Shown here: positions 25,676 through 39,800 of the stretch, one piece after another
Layout of the letters: each line of letters starts with the position of its first letter
How positions within the stretch are numbered: the first letter of the stretch is position 1
Origin: Pirellulales bacterium
Lineage (GTDB): Bacteria > Planctomycetota > Planctomycetia > Pirellulales > UBA1268
Assembly: GCA_029246985.1 (NCBI GenBank)
Contig: JAQWMC010000012.1
Location: forward strand, 1-39,800
DNA: 39,800 nt
Direction of reading: 5' to 3'
Notes under the pieces: model-generated
What the model saw: only the letters and a program-made list of their open reading frames with translations
Database searches by the model: none
What the model was told of the DNA's origin: nothing
Position numbers and translations under genes: made by a program

Positions 25676-27646
25676 ATGAACAAGATTTTTGTCTGTGCCA
25701 TGATGTCGGTGGCAACGGTGTTACTCAGTGCAACCAAAGTTGATGCTGCTTACTGTGGGTTAGCTAACTACCAACACGGTGCCTCGAAAGTTTCTACCGT
25801 AAGCTTTTCGAAAGCTCGCAAGAATTGTAGCTGCAGTGAAGGCTGTGAGCCGTCGTGCGCAGCTCCTTCATGCTGTGGTCCTCGGCTTGTCAAGGATGTT
25901 GTTTACGAGAAGAAACAGTACACATGTTACAAAACCGTATGCGAAAAGGTTGTTGAGCAAAAGGAAATCAACTGCATTCGCTACGAGAAGGATCAATGCT
26001 ACCGGGACGTTGAGTACACAGTCTGCAAGCCGGCCTGGGAGACTCGTACAAGAACAATTCCGTACACGGTATGCAAGCCTGTGTACGAGACGAGGACGAA
26101 AGAGATTCCATACACGGTGTGCAAACCTGTGTATGAGACACGCGAGCAGTGCTACACGGTATGCAAGCCTGTGTACGAGACAAGGACGAAAGAGATTCCA
26201 TACACGGTGTGCAAACCTGTGTATGAGACCCGCGAGCAGTGTTACACGGTATGCAAGCCTGTGTACGAGACAAGGACAAAAGAAATTCCATACACAGTGT
26301 GCAAACCTGTATATGAGACACGCGAGCAGTGTTACACGGTATGCAAGCCTGTGTACGAGACGAGGACGAAAGAGATTCCATACACAGTGTGCAAGCCTGT
26401 ATATGAGACACGCGAGCAATGCTACACGGTATGCAAGCCCGTTTACGAGACGTGCACGAAAGAGATTCCGTATACAGTGTGCAAGCCTGTCTGGGAAACA
26501 CGAGAGCGAGATATTTGTCATACCATCTGTAAGCCAGTGCACTACACCAAGACTGTAAAGGTCTGCAAGGGTCACTGGGAAACTGAAAGGTGTGAAATTC
26601 CGGGGCCATTGGTCACAAAGTGTGTTCGACAGCCAGGTTGTTGGGAGACGGACTGTTCAGGGAAACGGTGTTACCATCCGGGGCCTGTGAAGAAGATTCA
26701 GGTTCAGTGCCCATCCAGGACAATCTGCAAAAAAGTATGGGTTCCTGAAATTTGTGAGAAGCAGATTGACTGTGTCCGCTATGAGCGAGAGACCATTGTC
26801 AAAAAGCAATGCTACAAAGTCTGCAAGATGGTCCAGGAGCAAAGAATCAAGACCTGCTGTTACAAGGTCTGCAAGATGGTGCCAGAGCAACGCGTACGCA
26901 CCTATAAAGTCTGCAAGATGGTGCCAGAACAGCGGGTGCGAACCTGCTCGTATAGAGTTTGCAAGATGGTACCGGAGCAACGTGTGCGAACGTACAAGGT
27001 CTGCAAGATGGTGCCAGAGCGTCGGGTTAAGACCTGCTGTTACAAGGTCTGCAAGATGGTGCCGGAGCAACGTGTTCGGACATACCAGGTTTGCAAGATG
27101 GTACCGGAGCAGCGTGTACGAACCTGCTGTTACAAGGTTTGCAAGATGGTGCCAGAGCAACGTGTACGGACGTATCAGGTTTGCAAAATGGTACCGGAGC
27201 AGCGCGTGCGGACCTGCTGCTACAAGGTTTGCAAGATGGTGCCAGAGCAACGTGTACGGACATATCAGGTTTGTAAGATGGTGCCGGAGAAGCGTGTACG
27301 AACCTGCTGTTACAAGGTCTGCAAGATGGTACCGGAGCAGCGTGTGCGGACGTATAAGGTTTGCAAGATGGTGCCGGAGCAGCGGATGAAGACATGCTCA
27401 TATCAAGTGTGCAAAATGGTTCGGGAACAGCGTTGTCGTGAAGAGTGTTACAAAGTGTGCAAGACGGTTAAAGAGACACACATAAAGAAAGTGCCTTATT
27501 GTGTGACGCGACCTGTTCACTACACAAAAACCATTGATGTTTATCGCATGGTTCCAAAGAAGGTTGCCTACACGGTGACGAAGTGTGTTCCAAAGACAGT
27601 TTGGCGTGAAGTCCCATGTGAGCCATCATGTGGATATGAGGACTAG
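25676..27646 (+). CDS. Secreted cysteine-rich YTV/CKP repeat protein
   Basis: A 656-residue secreted protein with signal peptide MNKIFVCAMMSVATVLL ... VDA. Array 1 (about residues 112-285) has 11 YTVCKP units alternating between TKEIP and EQC linkers. A Cys/Pro-rich middle (about 290-375, with GCWETDCSGKRC) follows. Array 2 (about 378-600) has 14 VCKMV units of the type YKVCKMVPEQRVRT. The ends carry CEPSC motifs (GCEPSCAAPSCC and PCEPSCGYED). The repeats belong to the YTV family that I recall from Rhodopirellula, where such Cys-rich proteins are reported in the cell wall; the structural role here is inferred. Both arrays repeat every 90 bp. An AAGAGAG site precedes the ATG. Confidence 0.88.
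   Translation: MNKIFVCAMMSVATVLLSATKVDAAYCGLANYQHGASKVSTVSFSKARKNCSCSEGCEPSCAAPSCCGPRLVKDVVYEKKQYTCYKTVCEKVVEQKEINCIRYEKDQCYRDVEYTVCKPAWETRTRTIPYTVCKPVYETRTKEIPYTVCKPVYETREQCYTVCKPVYETRTKEIPYTVCKPVYETREQCYTVCKPVYETRTKEIPYTVCKPVYETREQCYTVCKPVYETRTKEIPYTVCKPVYETREQCYTVCKPVYETCTKEIPYTVCKPVWETRERDICHTICKPVHYTKTVKVCKGHWETERCEIPGPLVTKCVRQPGCWETDCSGKRCYHPGPVKKIQVQCPSRTICKKVWVPEICEKQIDCVRYERETIVKKQCYKVCKMVQEQRIKTCCYKVCKMVPEQRVRTYKVCKMVPEQRVRTCSYRVCKMVPEQRVRTYKVCKMVPERRVKTCCYKVCKMVPEQRVRTYQVCKMVPEQRVRTCCYKVCKMVPEQRVRTYQVCKMVPEQRVRTCCYKVCKMVPEQRVRTYQVCKMVPEKRVRTCCYKVCKMVPEQRVRTYKVCKMVPEQRMKTCSYQVCKMVREQRCREECYKVCKTVKETHIKKVPYCVTRPVHYTKTIDVYRMVPKKVAYTVTKCVPKTVWREVPCEPSCGYED
26013..26530 (+). repeat. 90-bp tandem repeat array 1 inside the YTV protein gene
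   Basis: The string ATGCAAGCCTGTGTACGAGA recurs at 26071, 26161, 26251 and 26341, and in a diverged form at 26431, a strict 90-bp period equal to 30 codons. Each period encodes two YTVCKPVYETR units. The copies are nearly identical at the DNA level, which suggests recent duplication or gene conversion. Confidence 0.9.
26809..27474 (+). repeat. 90-bp tandem repeat array 2 inside the YTV protein gene
   Basis: Units encoding CYKVCKMVPEQRVRT plus YQVCKMVPEQRVRT repeat; the start ACCTGCTGT/C TACAAGGT is seen at about 27122, 27212 and 27302, again a 90-bp period. The two arrays differ in sequence but share the 30-codon period. Confidence 0.88.
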
Positions 27647-32145: not shown

Positions 32146-34362
32146 ATGCCGGAACCAATAGCACCCCTCAACACCCTCGTCATTGAGAAATTATCAGGGG
32201 GGATAACTGCTATTGGCATCAATGTGCCGGGCTGCTCACAGAATGTGATGAATCAGGATTTTATGCAAGAACTTGAACAAGTTTTTGCCTTTCTCCAGCA
32301 AAACCCACCTCGCGGCCTTCTTGTAGAGTCCCTTCGAGATGACTCATTTCTTGCCGGTGCTGACATTGGTCAGATTGATACCGTTTGGTCGTTGCCACCC
32401 GCTCGCCTGAAGGAATTATGCGATCACGGCAGGAAACTCCTTGGTACGTTTGCTTCATCGCCATGGCCTAGCGTTGCAGTAATAGACGGCGTTTGTCTCG
32501 GGGGAGGTCTTGAACTTGCACTTGCATGTGATCTACGCATAGCGACTGAAAATCACAAGACAATTCTCGGCATGCCGGAAGTTAAGCTTGGGCTGTTGCC
32601 CGGGTGGGGTGGCACTGTTCGTTTGCCCCGACTAATCGGAATCGGTCCTGCGATCGAACTAATAGCTTCGGGTGATGCGATCACCGGTTCTCAAGCGAAG
32701 ACTCTTGGTTTAGTTGACGCCTGCGTGCCCGTTCATTCAGCACGAGAGTCTGCATGTGTCTTAATAGAGCAAGCCATTGCTACTGGAGACTATTTAAAAC
32801 GTCGATCTGAGTTGCAGTTGCCGCACATCCTGGATAAGCCAGAGAGTGATTTTTTATTGGCGACCACAGGCGCCGTCATTGTGGGTCGTACAAAAGGAAA
32901 TTATCCAGCACCGATGGTTGCTTTCAACACAATCATGCAGAGCGCTGCAAAGTCAACAACAGAAGCAGCCGCTCTTGAAAGCAAAGCCTTTTCTGAACTG
33001 GCGAAAACGTCAGTCGCGAAACAACTTGTTCGTGTGTACCGGCTTGGCGAACGAAACCGTAGTGACTGTGGTCTTGGTAAGTCGACACAATTGACTCCAA
33101 ATAAGTCGCTGCGTGTAAACGAGTTGCAAAAGCCATCAATTGTTGGCGCAGGGATTATGGGTGCTGGCATTACAGCACGTCATGTGCGATCAGGGTTTGT
33201 TACAAAACTTGTTGACATTAATGCCGAGGCACTTGGTCAAAGCATTCCTACTATCCTCGAGGAGGCTGCTTGGGACCGTTACTATCAGAAGACGAACCAG
33301 GAGAGAGTGGGCGAGTTGACAGGTCGTCTCATGTCTTCAACACAGCTTTCATCAATCGCGGGCACGGATATTGTCATAGAAAGTGTGATTGAACGGACTG
33401 ACTTAAAACGACAAGTCCTTGCAGAAATTGAAACCACAGTGTCCCCGAGCACCATTATTTGCACGAACACCTCAACAAATCCGATAGCGACACTTGCTGA
33501 TGTATTTTCTGATCCGACACGTTTTTGTGGCATGCATTTCTTCAATCCTGTCAGGAAAATGTCTTTGGTCGAAGTCATTCGTGGTCCAGATACCAGTGAC
33601 TCCACAGTTGCTTCAGTCGTTCTGCACGCAAAACGACTGAAGAAAGTTCCAGTTGTCGTTCAAGACAGTCCAGGATTTCTAGTCAATCGGGTTCTGACAC
33701 CATACCTGCATGAATCAGTTGAATTGTTGCGGGAAGGAGTTGATCCATCACGAATTGACAAAGTCTCTCGACGATTTGGTATGCCTCTTGGACCACTTGA
33801 ACTCTATGACATGGTCGGCCTTGATACTGCCTTCTACGCCGGACTGGTCATGGCAAATGCCATCGGTGATCGTATTGACGCCTCGCCCGTCATACCAGCA
33901 CTTGTAAAAGCTGGTTGGTTAGGACGCAAAACAGGAACAGGGTTTTACACATACAAGGGTACTGGTCATGATGCAACAATCGAAAGTGTCAATGAGAAAC
34001 TAAATGATCTAATCGATCCGTATCGTTTGGCAGAGCAGCAGACGACTGATGAGCAAATTCGTGATCGATTATTCTTGCCGATGTTACTCGAATCACTCCT
34101 TGTCCTAGATGAAGGTATTGTGCGGGATGGATGTGATATCGATCTCGCTGTTATTCATGCACTTGGATTTCCGGCCTTCCGTGGTGGAGTGCTTGCGTGG
34201 GGTGATTACCTTGGTGCAGCTGAGATTGTTCGTCGGCTCGATCAATTCAATTACCTGGGGCCACGAATGACACCGCCGGCAAGGCTTCTAGCTCATGCTG
34301 AATCAGGTCGTCCTTTTACATTGGTGGAAGAAAGCGGAAGTCATTCAAGCCAAGCTACTTGA
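32146..34362 (+). CDS. fadJ: Bifunctional enoyl-CoA hydratase/3-hydroxyacyl-CoA dehydrogenase
   Basis: This 738-residue protein does the second and third steps of fatty acid beta-oxidation. The N-terminal crotonase domain (about 1-200) has the oxyanion-hole SFLAGADIGQID and both catalytic Glu, in CLGGGLELALACD and GMPEVKLGLLPGWGG. The NAD-binding Rossmann part starts at IVGAGIMGAG near residue 331; the catalytic His is in MHFFNPV near 464. The C-terminal 3HCDH domain spans about 515-720. It is FadJ/FadB-like; which one cannot be decided. The next gene, a thiolase, begins 9 bases after the stop. The ATG at 32146 has only a weak upstream purine site. Confidence 0.93.
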   Translation: MPEPIAPLNTLVIEKLSGGITAIGINVPGCSQNVMNQDFMQELEQVFAFLQQNPPRGLLVESLRDDSFLAGADIGQIDTVWSLPPARLKELCDHGRKLLGTFASSPWPSVAVIDGVCLGGGLELALACDLRIATENHKTILGMPEVKLGLLPGWGGTVRLPRLIGIGPAIELIASGDAITGSQAKTLGLVDACVPVHSARESACVLIEQAIATGDYLKRRSELQLPHILDKPESDFLLATTGAVIVGRTKGNYPAPMVAFNTIMQSAAKSTTEAAALESKAFSELAKTSVAKQLVRVYRLGERNRSDCGLGKSTQLTPNKSLRVNELQKPSIVGAGIMGAGITARHVRSGFVTKLVDINAEALGQSIPTILEEAAWDRYYQKTNQERVGELTGRLMSSTQLSSIAGTDIVIESVIERTDLKRQVLAEIETTVSPSTIICTNTSTNPIATLADVFSDPTRFCGMHFFNPVRKMSLVEVIRGPDTSDSTVASVVLHAKRLKKVPVVVQDSPGFLVNRVLTPYLHESVELLREGVDPSRIDKVSRRFGMPLGPLELYDMVGLDTAFYAGLVMANAIGDRIDASPVIPALVKAGWLGRKTGTGFYTYKGTGHDATIESVNEKLNDLIDPYRLAEQQTTDEQIRDRLFLPMLLESLLVLDEGIVRDGCDIDLAVIHALGFPAFRGGVLAWGDYLGAAEIVRRLDQFNYLGPRMTPPARLLAHAESGRPFTLVEESGSHSSQAT

Positions 34363-34371
34363 GAGTGAAAA

Positions 34372-35556
34372 ATGACACGATTGTCTCGCTTCCCGGAAAA
34401 TACCCCAGTTGTTGTGTCCTGCTGCCGAACTGCAATCGGTCGGTCTGATGCAGATCGTGGTGTTTTCCGAAAAGTTCGTGGTGATGAACTAGCTGCTTTG
34501 GTTGTAGCCGAAGCAGTCGCAAGAGGAAAAGTCTCACCAGAATGCATCGAGGATGTTCTTGTAGGCGTGACCCAGCAACGAGCAGAGCTTGGTGGTAATG
34601 TAGCGCGTACGATAGCCATGTTAGCGGGGCTGCCTTTCACCACAGCGGCATCCACAACGAATCGTCTGTGTGGTTCATCGCTCCAAGGTTTGTCACAGGC
34701 ATGCCACTCAATCATAGCCGGTGCAGAAGATGTTCATGTTGTTGCAGGTGTTGAGCATATGCAACGTCTCCCAATGAATTCTGAAATCAATTTTCATCCT
34801 CAAGCTTTTTCAAGGTCGAGTCGTGCAATCCTTTCAATGGGCTTAACGGCTGAGTTTCTCGCCTCGAGTCGTGGTATTCGTCGCAAGTCGCAAGAGGAAT
34901 ATGCGCTTGAAAGTCATCGTCGAGCAGCACAAGCAGCAGATACAGATGTTTTTAAGAATGAGATCGTTCAGTGCCAGGGTTTGGATGACAACGGCGTGCT
35001 CTCTTTCGTAGATCGTGACCAGTCGATCCGTTCTGACGCGAACCTTGCAGCGATGAAAAAACTTAATCCGGTATTTTTGCCGAAACTAGGGAGTATCACT
35101 GCTGCTACAAGTGCTCCACTGAGTGACGGAGCCGCTGCAATGGTTGTCATGTCTGAAGCAACAGCACATCGTCATCAGCTCACTCCGATGGTTCGCGTGT
35201 TAAGCACAGCGGTTGTTGGTGTATCGCCAGCTCTGATGGGCATGGGCCCGGTACACGCGACTCATAAAGTACTCCATCGTTCGGGAGTCCGCTTGCAAGA
35301 TATTGGAATCATAGAATTAAATGAAGCTTTTGCGGCTCAGGCTATTGCGTGTATTGAAGAATTGAAACTTGATTACGACAAGGTGAATGTCTGTGGTGGT
35401 AGTTTGGCTATTGGACATCCTCTCGGAGCAACCGGTGTCCGTATTTCAACAACACTTATTCATGCTATGCGAGCTCGTCAGATTCGCCTTGGCCTGGCTA
35501 CGATGTGTATTGGTCTTGGGCAGGGAATCGCAGTTATTTTTGAATTGATAGAATGA
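34372..35556 (+). CDS. fadA: Acetyl-CoA acyltransferase (3-ketoacyl-CoA thiolase)
   Basis: This enzyme cleaves 3-ketoacyl-CoA to acetyl-CoA and a shortened acyl-CoA, the last beta-oxidation step. Of the 394 residues, the nucleophile Cys is at about 100 in NRLCGSSLQ, the His is in GGSLAIGHPLGATG near 349, and the acid-base Cys is in MCIGLGQG near 379, where most thiolases have CIGGGQG. It lies 9 bases after the fadJ stop, with GAGAGTG before the ATG, so translation is probably coupled. The active site is intact. Confidence 0.94.
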   Translation: MTRLSRFPENTPVVVSCCRTAIGRSDADRGVFRKVRGDELAALVVAEAVARGKVSPECIEDVLVGVTQQRAELGGNVARTIAMLAGLPFTTAASTTNRLCGSSLQGLSQACHSIIAGAEDVHVVAGVEHMQRLPMNSEINFHPQAFSRSSRAILSMGLTAEFLASSRGIRRKSQEEYALESHRRAAQAADTDVFKNEIVQCQGLDDNGVLSFVDRDQSIRSDANLAAMKKLNPVFLPKLGSITAATSAPLSDGAAAMVVMSEATAHRHQLTPMVRVLSTAVVGVSPALMGMGPVHATHKVLHRSGVRLQDIGIIELNEAFAAQAIACIEELKLDYDKVNVCGGSLAIGHPLGATGVRISTTLIHAMRARQIRLGLATMCIGLGQGIAVIFELIE

Positions 35557-35664: not shown

Positions 35665-38600
35665 ATGGAAAAAACTTTGCATCATACAGCGAAAGCTACA
35701 CCAGACATTCTGGCTAATGGATGTATGCCTTCATCATTGGTTCAACTTTTGCTTGAACGTTGTAATACGAGTTTTGATCGTCCAGCAATAATTGATTCTC
35801 TTTCAGGCGAGCAGCTTCGCTGGGGGCAACTGCTGCAACAATCAGTCAGAGTTGCTGAGCGGATTGAGGCTGCTGGTCTGAGGCCAGGTGATCGGGTGCT
35901 TCATATAGGTCCGCATACCGCTGCATGGCCGATCGTAGATTTCGCATGCTTGCTTAGTGGTGTTGTTCATGTAGCCCTTCATGCAGAGGGAAGTCAGTCA
36001 GAACAAATTCGGCATCTGCAACTATTTCAACCATGCGGTTTGATTTTTTCAGGCGGAATTTCTCTGCGACACGTCAGTCAAAGTGGATTGCCGCTCCTTG
36101 AGGTGCAAGCAGAATTGCGTACAAACCACGTGGCGTATGCAACTGTCTGTGATTACATTGCTGAACGAGCCAGGCAGTGTGACCCTGATGGGCCAGCCTC
36201 AGTTCTTATTTCTTCAGGCACAACAGGTCGCCCCAAAGGATTTGTGCACAGTCAGCGATCATTGGTGATGAATGCAGTGGCATCTGCAGCAGAATTTTTA
36301 GAAGAGCCTGATGACGTGCGGCTTTCGTGGCTGCCTCAAAGCCATGCTCTGGCACGAGTTGGAGATCTTTATACGACACTTGTTAGGGGAGGTTCCCTGA
36401 ATATTGTTCGTGATCGCCACAAAATTCTTGAAGCGTGTGAAAAAATACCACCAGCGGTAATTCTCGGAGTACCAATCTTCTACGACAGACTGGCACGAGC
36501 CGCTCAGCAAGGAAGAATTACAAGCCTTGTTGATGCATTAGGAGGACGAATACGGGTTTGTGTTTCGGGGGGGGCTCCACTTCGACGATGGACTGCCCGC
36601 ATTTTTCAACAACACGGTATACCGCTTGTTGGAGGGTATGGTTTGGCCGAAGCAGGTCCTGTTGTCGCCGTATCAAATCCTCGATGCGAGCAAACCGGTG
36701 CCGTTGGACATCCATTGCAAGGTATAGAAATCGCGATCTCCGAAGAAAGTTCGCGCCCGGGTGAGGTTCTAGTGCGAACTCCATGCCGAGCACTTGCTGT
36801 AATAGATCCATCTCAAGGCCGGGAAGAGTCTCCGATCGATCGAACAGCTTGGCTGGAAACAGGTGACAGAGGTGTCATTGATAGTGACGGCCAGTTAAGA
36901 ATTACTGGACGGATAGATGATGTGCTGACACTTGCCAATGGTACGAAGTTGTTGCCAGCCGATGTGGAGTCGGTGCTACTAGAAGAACCAGCGGTTGCTC
37001 AAGTTTGCGTGACGGGCGAAGGGCTTCCGTGGCCAGTGGCGTTTATAGTACCTGAACCAGTGACAGTAAGGGCTCTGCTTAAACGATTTCGTTGCAGAGT
37101 ATGGAGTCCCAAACAGGCTCTTTCTCACCCAAAAATACTTTGTTGGTTTTCTCATAGACTGTCTGAGCAACAAAAATGTTTGCCTCGTCGAATACGTATC
37201 AGAAGATTTCTACTTGTTGATCATCCATTCGATATGGCACATGGCGAAGCAACAGAGTCTTTTAAAATAAAACGTCGTAGTATCACAAAGAATTTTGCAT
37301 CGTATATCCGCTCTTTTGATCCACAAGCGAGCGGTGCAAAAGAAGGTCTCCTGCCTGGAGTCGGCACAATAAACAGTACAAACCAGGCGTCTACTGAAAG
37401 AGGAGAATCAGTCCCACTGCGTCAAAGTTCATCTCGAATCAATTGGCTTCCTTCAGCAGTGTGGGGAGAAGAAGATTCTTCTGGAAATAGAAATGGATTT
37501 TCCCATGCTGCGGCCCAGACGGTGGCAGGAATGTCCGATGAAGTTTCTACAATCGTAGACAGCACGAAAGACGTTGTCGAAAACCTTCGAGACAATGACG
37601 AACTTTATGAAAGGATAGAGGGTGCGATATTACCAGCAGCTCCGTTAGCAGATGCACCAACGCCGCCCACGGGAAAACTTTCAGAACGTGCAGAGCGAGC
37701 GATTGGCGAAACGGGCCTATGGGGTTTGTTGGTGCCACGGATATACGGTGGATCGGGTTGTAGTTACATAGAGCTCACGCAAGCGATTACACATCTTGCT
37801 TGCGTCAATCCTACGATCTCTGGATTACTGTCAGTCCATTCAACAATTGGTGCTATTTCGGCACTCACTGCATTTGGCTCTGATGAGCAACGGCAATGCT
37901 GGTTGCCGAGGCTGGCCGAAGGAGCCCCGATGTCAGTCTTTGCAGCAACCGAGTCAGATGCGGGATGTGACCTTCATAGGGTCGCATCACAACTCGAGTA
38001 TGACGGGAAACAGTACCGACTAACTGGGACAAAGATGTTTATTACAGGGGCAACGTATGGTCGCTTAGTCAAACTTCTGGCGATTTTTGAAGGGCGGCCC
38101 GTCATTGTTCTTGTCAAACTTCCTGATTCAAATACACCATATTTCTCATTGCAGAGCTACGGTCTTCATCCACTTAAGCATGCTCACAACAATGCTCTGA
38201 AATTTGATCGGTTTCCAGTAGATTCTTCTTGTGTGCTGCGTCCAGAAAAAACTTTCGATGGGCAAGAAAGCGATGGCATGTCAATTGTTTGGCATGGACT
38301 CAATCGTGGGCGTGTGGCGCTTGCCGCACAAGCAGCTGGAACAATCAGCCTGTTATTGAATCAGGCGGCTGTATTTTCAGGAAAGCGACATACCTGGGGA
38401 CAGCCAATTCAGAAGCGGGAGCTTGTGCTGGGCCGTCTGGGAAGAATGGCATCTGCAAGACTCGTCTGTGAGGCTTTGTCTGGGTGGTCAGCATCGGTGA
38501 TTGATGGTGGTGGATCAGGAGAACTTGAAGCAATTCTTGCCAAGGTTGTTGCTAGTCGTTGCCTGCGTCAGGTCGCAATTGATGCTCTAGGGATTCATGG

Positions 38601-39159
38601 AGGTCGAGCATTTCTCATCGGTCACCCACTTGGAGATTCGTTTCATGATCATTTTGCTGCTGGGATCTATGAAGGCGAAAGTGACCTACTTGGATTGGCA
38701 CTGTTTAAGGGTATTGCAAAGCATCACCCACTTGCATCGAAGAAAAATCCTCTGGAATGGATACGATGGAGATGTTCTCAAAGCCTGAAGTATTTCTCAT
38801 CCAAGGAAGATGCGACTCTTCTAGATGGTGAACTCCGTGATTTAGCAATCCAAGCTCGCCGTGGTCTTGTGGCCGCAAGTGTTGAGGCCGATCAGCTCTT
38901 GAGAAGGCATGGCAAAAAACTTATTGAACAACAACTGGTAATTGCAAATCTTTCAGATCAGATTCAAGGTTTTATTTCGTGTCTTGCTGTCATCTACCTT
39001 GCAGATAGGAGAGCTGATAATGCTTCACTGCATGCTGCAGTATGTTGGTGTCGTCCTGTAATCATGAAATTTCTTGGGAAGCCACTCGGTTCTCATGATT
39101 ACAAACGGCTAGCAGAACTTGGTCGCTGTTCCTTAGGTAGTCATTCTGACAAGGGGTAA
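35665..39159 (+). CDS. Fusion of acyl-CoA ligase and VLCAD-type acyl-CoA dehydrogenase
   Basis: This 1164-residue protein has two enzymes in one frame. The N-terminal half is an AMP-forming ligase: P-loop ISSGTTGRPKGFVHS at about 180-195, GGYGLAEAGPV, WLETGDRG near 395, GRIDDVLTLANG, and a late SFKIKRR at about 531 that fits the A10 lysine of long-chain ligases. A linker of about 70 residues follows. From about 620 comes an acyl-CoA dehydrogenase with GLWGLLVPRIYGG, FAATESDAG, TGTKMFITGA and the catalytic Glu region IYEGESDLL near 1001. The last 130 residues (HGKKLIEQQLVIANLSDQ) resemble the C-terminal domain of VLCAD/ACAD9. It should activate and then desaturate fatty acids. An internal Met at 21 could be the start. 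Confidence 0.88.
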   Translation: MEKTLHHTAKATPDILANGCMPSSLVQLLLERCNTSFDRPAIIDSLSGEQLRWGQLLQQSVRVAERIEAAGLRPGDRVLHIGPHTAAWPIVDFACLLSGVVHVALHAEGSQSEQIRHLQLFQPCGLIFSGGISLRHVSQSGLPLLEVQAELRTNHVAYATVCDYIAERARQCDPDGPASVLISSGTTGRPKGFVHSQRSLVMNAVASAAEFLEEPDDVRLSWLPQSHALARVGDLYTTLVRGGSLNIVRDRHKILEACEKIPPAVILGVPIFYDRLARAAQQGRITSLVDALGGRIRVCVSGGAPLRRWTARIFQQHGIPLVGGYGLAEAGPVVAVSNPRCEQTGAVGHPLQGIEIAISEESSRPGEVLVRTPCRALAVIDPSQGREESPIDRTAWLETGDRGVIDSDGQLRITGRIDDVLTLANGTKLLPADVESVLLEEPAVAQVCVTGEGLPWPVAFIVPEPVTVRALLKRFRCRVWSPKQALSHPKILCWFSHRLSEQQKCLPRRIRIRRFLLVDHPFDMAHGEATESFKIKRRSITKNFASYIRSFDPQASGAKEGLLPGVGTINSTNQASTERGESVPLRQSSSRINWLPSAVWGEEDSSGNRNGFSHAAAQTVAGMSDEVSTIVDSTKDVVENLRDNDELYERIEGAILPAAPLADAPTPPTGKLSERAERAIGETGLWGLLVPRIYGGSGCSYIELTQAITHLACVNPTISGLLSVHSTIGAISALTAFGSDEQRQCWLPRLAEGAPMSVFAATESDAGCDLHRVASQLEYDGKQYRLTGTKMFITGATYGRLVKLLAIFEGRPVIVLVKLPDSNTPYFSLQSYGLHPLKHAHNNALKFDRFPVDSSCVLRPEKTFDGQESDGMSIVWHGLNRGRVALAAQAAGTISLLLNQAAVFSGKRHTWGQPIQKRELVLGRLGRMASARLVCEALSGWSASVIDGGGSGELEAILAKVVASRCLRQVAIDALGIHGGRAFLIGHPLGDSFHDHFAAGIYEGESDLLGLALFKGIAKHHPLASKKNPLEWIRWRCSQSLKYFSSKEDATLLDGELRDLAIQARRGLVAASVEADQLLRRHGKKLIEQQLVIANLSDQIQGFISCLAVIYLADRRADNASLHAAVCWCRPVIMKFLGKPLGSHDYKRLAELGRCSLGSHSDKG

Positions 39160-39800
39160 CTTGTTGTAATCACTGGCCACCACGAGCAGAGATACCAGGC
39201 TCTGGGTGTGGTCCATTCGACAAGCATTTCTAAGCTGTTGAATGAGCGCGCTTGAGAGGCGCCGCCAAGAAGCTCGTCGAAGAGCCCTTGTGGTTTCTTA
39301 TATTGAATGACCCGCACTGAATCTTCTTGAAGATCAGCCAGAACTACTGCTCTGGCAATCGCATCTTCAAGAAATCCAATCTTGTCAATCAGACCGAATG
39401 TGATTGCCTGATTCGCCGTAAACACCTGCCCGGTAGTAACCGACTCAATCGTTTTATCATCGAGTTTCGGACGACCTTTGCGGACAATGTCCTTAAAACG
39501 AGTAAACATTTCATCAACAAGATCTTGGACAATCTCTCGTTCTTTCTTAGCCAGTTCTGGTGAACGGTTTTTGGTAACACTAAGCATTTCTTTGAGAGGT
39601 CCACTGGTAATTGAGTCATCTGTGACATCGAATCGCTTAAGCAGTTGCGAAAAGTCAAAATGTGGAATTATTACACCAATTGATCCAGTGATTGTTGAGG
39701 GTTCAGCAAAAATTGTGTCATCTTGGCCGCCATTGGCCATTGCGACGTAGTACCCACCACTCGCCGCAATACTACCCATGCTGACAACAACAGGCAGATT
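39141..39800 (-). CDS. sppA: Signal peptide peptidase SppA-type S49 protease, 3' part
   Basis: Only the C-terminal 219 residues are in the window; the frame is open to the window edge at 39800, and the Met at 39779 is internal. The visible start NLPVVVSMGSIAASGGYY contains the catalytic Ser in AASGGYY, followed by IFAEPSTITGSIGV, both typical of S49 proteases that clear signal peptides in the membrane. The paired catalytic Lys would be in the missing part. The C-terminus has a hydrophobic, Trp-rich tail (about the last 25 residues). Its stop lies 19 bases inside the convergent fusion gene. Confidence 0.88.
   Translation of the reverse strand, partial: NLPVVVSMGSIAASGGYYVAMANGGQDDTIFAEPSTITGSIGVIIPHFDFSQLLKRFDVTDDSITSGPLKEMLSVTKNRSPELAKKEREIVQDLVDEMFTRFKDIVRKGRPKLDDKTIESVTTGQVFTANQAITFGLIDKIGFLEDAIARAVVLADLQEDSVRVIQYKKPQGLFDELLGGASQARSFNSLEMLVEWTTPRAWYLCSWWPVITTSYPLSE

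Follow-up and report, generated by a model that had tools for sequence, protein, structure and literature searches.

A fused acyl-CoA ligase and acyl-CoA dehydrogenase gene in the fadB-fadA operon of one Pirellulales family

The 39,800-nucleotide stretch of planctomycete DNA analyzed here, referred to as the window, carries a single gene (35665..39159, + strand) that encodes an acyl-CoA ligase and an acyl-CoA dehydrogenase (ACAD) in one protein of 1164 amino acids. The original prediction of one uninterrupted 1164-codon frame containing both enzyme types was borne out by the open reading frame (ORF) listing, by the translation, which begins with ATG and has no internal stops, and by the Pfam matches. 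The carriers of the fusion belong to one Pirellulales family (f1) of mostly uncultured planctomycete bacteria, in which both halves were found in a single ORF in 57 of 72 genomes. The order was assigned from the named close relatives, metagenome genomes that carry the label Pirellulales, Planctomycetaceae or Planctomycetota. The protein is likely to be a catabolic bifunctional enzyme that converts fatty acids to enoyl-CoA ahead of FadBA; we infer both activities and the fatty-acid substrate from homology.

The ligase half comprises residues 1 to approximately 551 (35665..37317, + strand), with its end placed by the drop in conservation and by the C-termini of separate ligases. Pfam matched AMP-binding (PF00501) to residues 32-374 (E 2.9e-54) and AMP-binding_C_3 (PF23562) to residues 418-480 (E 5.9e-8). 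This half has the features of the ANL superfamily, namely an AMP-binding domain with its P-loop, SSGTTGRPKG (residues 183-192; 36211..36240, + strand), and a C-terminal domain with the A10 lysine, K534, within SFKIKRR (residues 532-538; 37258..37278, + strand). Its top NCBIfam match was a long-chain-fatty-acid-CoA ligase subfamily, with a score below the cut-off of that model. The dehydrogenase core, which could be aligned to solved ACADs, comprises residues 669-1022 (37669..38730, + strand). Acyl-CoA_dh_N (PF02771; residues 676-753, E 1.9e-16) and Acyl-CoA_dh_1 (PF00441; residues 870-1009, E 1.5e-16) matched over their cut-offs, and Acyl-CoA_dh_M (PF02770; residues 759-830, E 1.4e-6) scored 28.9 bits against a curated cut-off of 33.3. 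The features of the ACAD family are present, that is, the N-terminal, middle and C-terminal domains and a glutamate at the IYEG position of the VLCAD/SCAD type. The candidate for the catalytic base is Glu1003 in YEGES (residues 1002-1006; 38668..38682, + strand), which aligns with the IYEG of 4u83, 5lnx and 4m9a. The nearest sequence matches of this half are dehydrogenases.

The active-site motifs were expected to be intact, and the family alignment agrees with this. Among the 57 members, S183, S184, G185, T186 and G188 of the P-loop, K534 and E1003 are near-invariant (at least 97%), as are E528, T530 and R537 around the A10 lysine, Y1002, G1004 and E1005 around the candidate base, and the FAD motifs of the dehydrogenase half. 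Within one FAD motif, GCD replaces GSD only in fused forms, while YEGE in place of YEGT is also seen in separate relatives. The ligase gave dN/dS values (Nei-Gojobori) of approximately 0.10-0.23, compared with 0.09-0.15 in the dehydrogenase core and 0.13-0.20 in the C-terminus. Because the catalytic motifs are near-invariant and dN/dS is low, both halves look to be under purifying selection and maintained as enzymes.

The two halves are joined by a stretch that was initially described as a linker of about 70 residues. A joining stretch does exist, but only about 44 of its residues (552-595; 37318..37449, + strand) are unconserved, and what follows (residues 596-668; 37450..37668, + strand) is an N-terminal arm that the dehydrogenase has kept. 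Both the sequence and the length of the linker vary among the 57 family members, with a mean identity to the window of 0.13-0.19 with gaps. Linker and arm gave dN/dS values of approximately 0.3-0.55; the linker by itself gave 0.40-1.1, where the value of 1.1 comes from one pair with very few sites. Trp600 and Phe612 of the arm are common to 56 of the 57 fused dehydrogenases and to all 13 separate ones, and in a single comparison hhalign matched the arm, from about residue 596, to the separate dehydrogenases with an E-value of 1.5e-4 and a probability of 51%. The approximately 60 conserved residues with which the separate dehydrogenase begins (from SFAETALKLGG on) are missing from the fusion. 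It may be speculated that these lost residues once aided docking to the ligase. The region from residue 545 to residue 620 was checked for a break, and the window has none; a frameshift between the domains was found in three relatives (G008, G014 and G064). In these three (loci L111, L094 and L112, respectively), which hold the only frameshifts seen in the family, the shift lies within or beside the linker, and each frameshifted stretch contains five or six consecutive C. The shifts may stem from sequencing error, from slippage or from genuine re-splitting.

The C-terminal helical domain (residues 1023-1164; 38731..39156, + strand) was predicted to be of the VLCAD/ACAD9 type. Support for this comes from profile alignment, in that the family profile spans the C-terminal domains of both human VLCAD (profile 673-1137 on 3b96) and human ACAD9 (profile 659-1132 on 8phf), but the domain is a divergent form, as the corresponding Pfam model (PF21343, ACAD9/ACADV C-terminal) matched the fusion protein under its cut-off (E 0.0053). 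The two human proteins share the ACAD core with the fusion, and differ from it in that they have no ligase and in their roles, VLCAD being linked to the electron-transfer flavoprotein (ETF) and ACAD9 being a complex I assembly factor. AlphaFold models built from five sequences reached a mean pLDDT of 30 for the whole protein and 36 for the dehydrogenase half, which is too low for use. Because VLCAD-type dehydrogenases work as dimers, a monomer model could not decide whether the two active sites face each other.

Of the 72 family genomes, 71 matched one or both halves of the fusion strongly. Apart from the 57 single-ORF copies, most of which are approximately 44-55% identical to the window protein, and the 3 frameshifted ones, the fusion region is missing or cut by contig ends in 10 genomes and the gene has been cleanly lost in 2 (G015 and G016). 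The fusion in the window is thus real and, rather than a one-off, is spread across the whole family. At the two loci without the gene (L126 in G015 and L125 in G016), the spacing between fadA and sppA is now 26 bp, and G015 has a further fadB-fadA-ligase cluster and a separate dehydrogenase elsewhere (L127). An internal TAG listed in two close relatives proved to be the terminal stop, placed two codons earlier.

As originally stated, the ligase and the dehydrogenase are normally separate proteins, and the closest relatives outside the family have them as adjacent genes of the same operon. A fadB-fadA-ligase-dehydrogenase operon with separate ligase and dehydrogenase genes is common in the other families of the order that were sampled, although some outgroups have another gene order or a nearby dehydrogenase alone. 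This operon resembles that of the window in gene order, neighbors, homologous domains (at most loci 31-36% identical to the window for the ligase and 34-38% for the dehydrogenase), the YEGE motif and the N-terminal arm. It differs in specifying two proteins, in the approximately 60 further N-terminal residues conserved in its dehydrogenase, and in the GSD of the FAD motif, which is GCD in fused forms. In the 12 outgroup junctions that were read, the two genes are 79-321 bp apart, with at least one and mostly several stops in the ligase frame. Outgroup open frames of 1264-1336 amino acids listed by the order scan gave the impression of a fusion, but in each of the 7 such loci that were read, several in-frame stops separate the genes. 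Of 294 genomes sampled across the phylum, 5 besides that of the window matched at E 1e-40, and those read have separate genes. Eight of the separate ligases (L055-L061 and L066) have TPKLSLRR or similar in the A10 region, compared with TPTLKLRR; a serine occupies the usual position of the A10 lysine and a lysine lies two residues earlier.

In quick maximum-likelihood trees of both halves, which have no independent rooting, the fused and frameshifted forms lie on one side of a single branch with support of 100 for the dehydrogenase half and 99 for the ligase half. A long stem lies between the fused and the separate forms, and both halves are strongly diverged. Since the fused forms fall on one side of one well-supported branch in both trees, the fusion most likely arose once, by the joining of adjacent operon genes, and we infer from the separate genes of the other families that the fused arrangement is derived. 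The joining would have taken place at the base of one Pirellulales family, from the adjacent ligase and dehydrogenase genes of a fadB-fadA-ligase-dehydrogenase operon, and would have removed the intergenic stops together with the approximately 60 N-terminal residues of the dehydrogenase.

In the window, the fusion gene follows two genes of the same operon, both conserved neighbors: one for a FadB/FadJ-like hydratase/3-hydroxyacyl-CoA dehydrogenase (32146..34362, + strand; PF00378, PF02737 and PF00725) and one for a FadA-like thiolase (34372..35556, + strand; PF00108 and PF02803), which ends 108 bp upstream of the fusion and is a conserved neighbor in the outgroups as well. On the other side lies a convergent SppA-like peptidase gene (39141..39779, - strand; PF01343) that is cut by the end of the window and that adjoins the fusion across the family. 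Further upstream, at 25676-27646, is a 656-residue protein with 14 matched YTV repeats (PF07639). In the role proposed here, the N-terminal half would use ATP and CoA to turn a fatty acid into acyl-CoA, the C-terminal FAD domain tethered to it would oxidize the acyl-CoA to trans-2-enoyl-CoA, and the FadB and FadA homologs of the operon would take this product through the remaining beta-oxidation cycle. The shortened acyl-CoAs would return to the dehydrogenase half alone.

The number of dehydrogenases per genome bears on this proposal. PF00441 has one match, located at the fusion, in 61 of the 72 family genomes, two in 9 and none in 2. That the fusion is usually the only PF00441 protein detected, and that the gene was lost as a unit in two members, counts for the catabolic role; that the same two members do without the gene counts against it. 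A second, separate dehydrogenase is present in 4 members of the window's own genus. Such a copy may simply be missing from the window genome, because two of these four are the closest full-length relatives of the window and the window genome is incomplete. In one of the four (G062, L150:348-2207), the second, separate dehydrogenase has an ACAD9/ACADV C-terminus that scores above the cut-off, and its cluster includes a nitronate-monooxygenase-like gene. The eight genomes checked have four to twelve AMP-binding proteins each, and other ligases could therefore feed the pathway.

Several other explanations were weighed against a catabolic bifunctional enzyme. The window lies on contig 163 of a 2.45 Mb draft genome of 167 contigs that is 79.5% complete, and an assembly or sequencing error could in principle have joined two genes; the 57 single-ORF copies in separately assembled genomes, at the identities to the window given above, rule out an assembly artefact and make an artefact of either kind vanishingly improbable. 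It is also very improbable that one half is catalytically dead and serves as a scaffold or regulator of the other. The strong divergence of both halves from the separate forms, visible as the long tree stem, would fit such a role, but it is opposed by the near-invariant motifs of both halves and by the purifying selection on both. A comparably slight chance is given to a biosynthetic starter enzyme that would supply unsaturated acyl groups for a natural product. A precedent of this kind, the only one found for such a fusion, is Orf45 from the enduracidin cluster (PMC9113097), in which a fatty acyl-AMP ligase and an ACAD domain are fused; like the planctomycete protein, it pairs an adenylate-forming ligase with a domain of the acyl-CoA dehydrogenase family. 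By description, Orf45 acts in lipopeptide starter-unit biosynthesis and not in a beta-oxidation operon, and the planctomycete fusion has a different genetic setting and, judged by family match, a different type of ligase. Furthermore, the fadB and fadA homologs adjoin the planctomycete gene in a setting that is conserved in the family, and no carrier-protein or NRPS domains were detected by Pfam among the scanned neighbors (FadB, FadA, SppA, DUF6580, S1 and SerS). A closer question is what the joining achieves in a catabolic enzyme. The fusion fixes the stoichiometry of the two enzymes at 1:1, and we lean slightly towards the view that 1:1 expression and co-localization are all that it provides, with acyl-CoA diffusing freely and no channelling. 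The weakly constrained linker of variable length and the adjacency of the genes in one operon before the fusion point in this direction, and so does the fact that acyl-CoAs of later cycles must in every case come to the dehydrogenase without help from the ligase. On the other hand, the fusion has been kept family-wide despite deep divergence, which suggests some benefit, though not necessarily channelling.

The route of the electrons is the other matter on which explanations diverge. Ten family genomes, of which eight are 90% complete or better, gave no match to PF00766 or PF01012 (ETF) or to PF21162 (ETF-quinone oxidoreductase), and none of the f1 genomes is among the ETF matches of the order-wide scan. 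With no ETF found in the family, the standard ETF-linked pathway is incomplete on paper. The lack of ETF is wider than the fusion, because family f15, which often has the separate-gene operon, has just one ETF match in the order scan, and it is probably older than the fusion. In family f17, ETF is present without a strong match to the fadB-fadA-ligase-dehydrogenase operon. A dehydrogenase half that acts as an acyl-CoA oxidase and passes electrons to oxygen would account for the absence of ETF and of ETF-quinone oxidoreductase. The cysteine of the GCD motif (Cys768, 37966-37968) is in keeping with this, as is Phe792, which lies at the site where a change from Trp to Phe aided oxidase activity in an engineered enzyme (PMC6017585). 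However, that enzyme also required a change from Thr to Gly at the gatekeeper of the K-x-W/F-I-T motif (PMC6017585), and the fused forms keep this residue as Thr794 (38044-38046), near-invariant in the 57 family members, where an oxidase would be expected to carry a small residue. Thr794 argues against a simple oxidase, as do the closest sequence matches being dehydrogenases, and we regard an oxidase as unlikely. Somewhat better placed, but still tentative and short of an even chance, is the suggestion that the fusion is an obligate enzyme of activation and oxidation, the only acyl-CoA dehydrogenase of the cell, that functions free of ETF, donates its electrons straight to the quinone pool of the membrane or to another, undescribed acceptor, and is held to the source of its substrate by the ligase tether. 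For E. coli, too, a FadE-type dehydrogenase that feeds the quinone pool directly has been considered (PMC11495604).

Whether such fusions are already well described in many phyla was also considered. In E. coli, FadD and FadE catalyze the same two successive steps as separate, unlinked proteins. Apart from the biosynthetic Orf45, no description of a FadD-like and FadE-like fusion in a catabolic operon was found in the open-access literature on fusions and on planctomycete beta-oxidation. The survey beyond the planctomycetes drew on plasmid records and on a single scan of named genomes with a short pattern. Among the plasmid records with both halves close together, none covers 80% of the query at one place, and all six loci inspected are separate genes; the Kocuria matches in the named-genome scan involve the ligase half only.

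Because the sister families have the ligase and the dehydrogenase as separate, adjacent genes, the fusion offers a clean natural before-and-after test of the effect of enzyme joining on flux. As the usual single dehydrogenase of genomes in which no ETF was found, the protein is an entry point to how planctomycete beta-oxidation reaches the respiratory chain.
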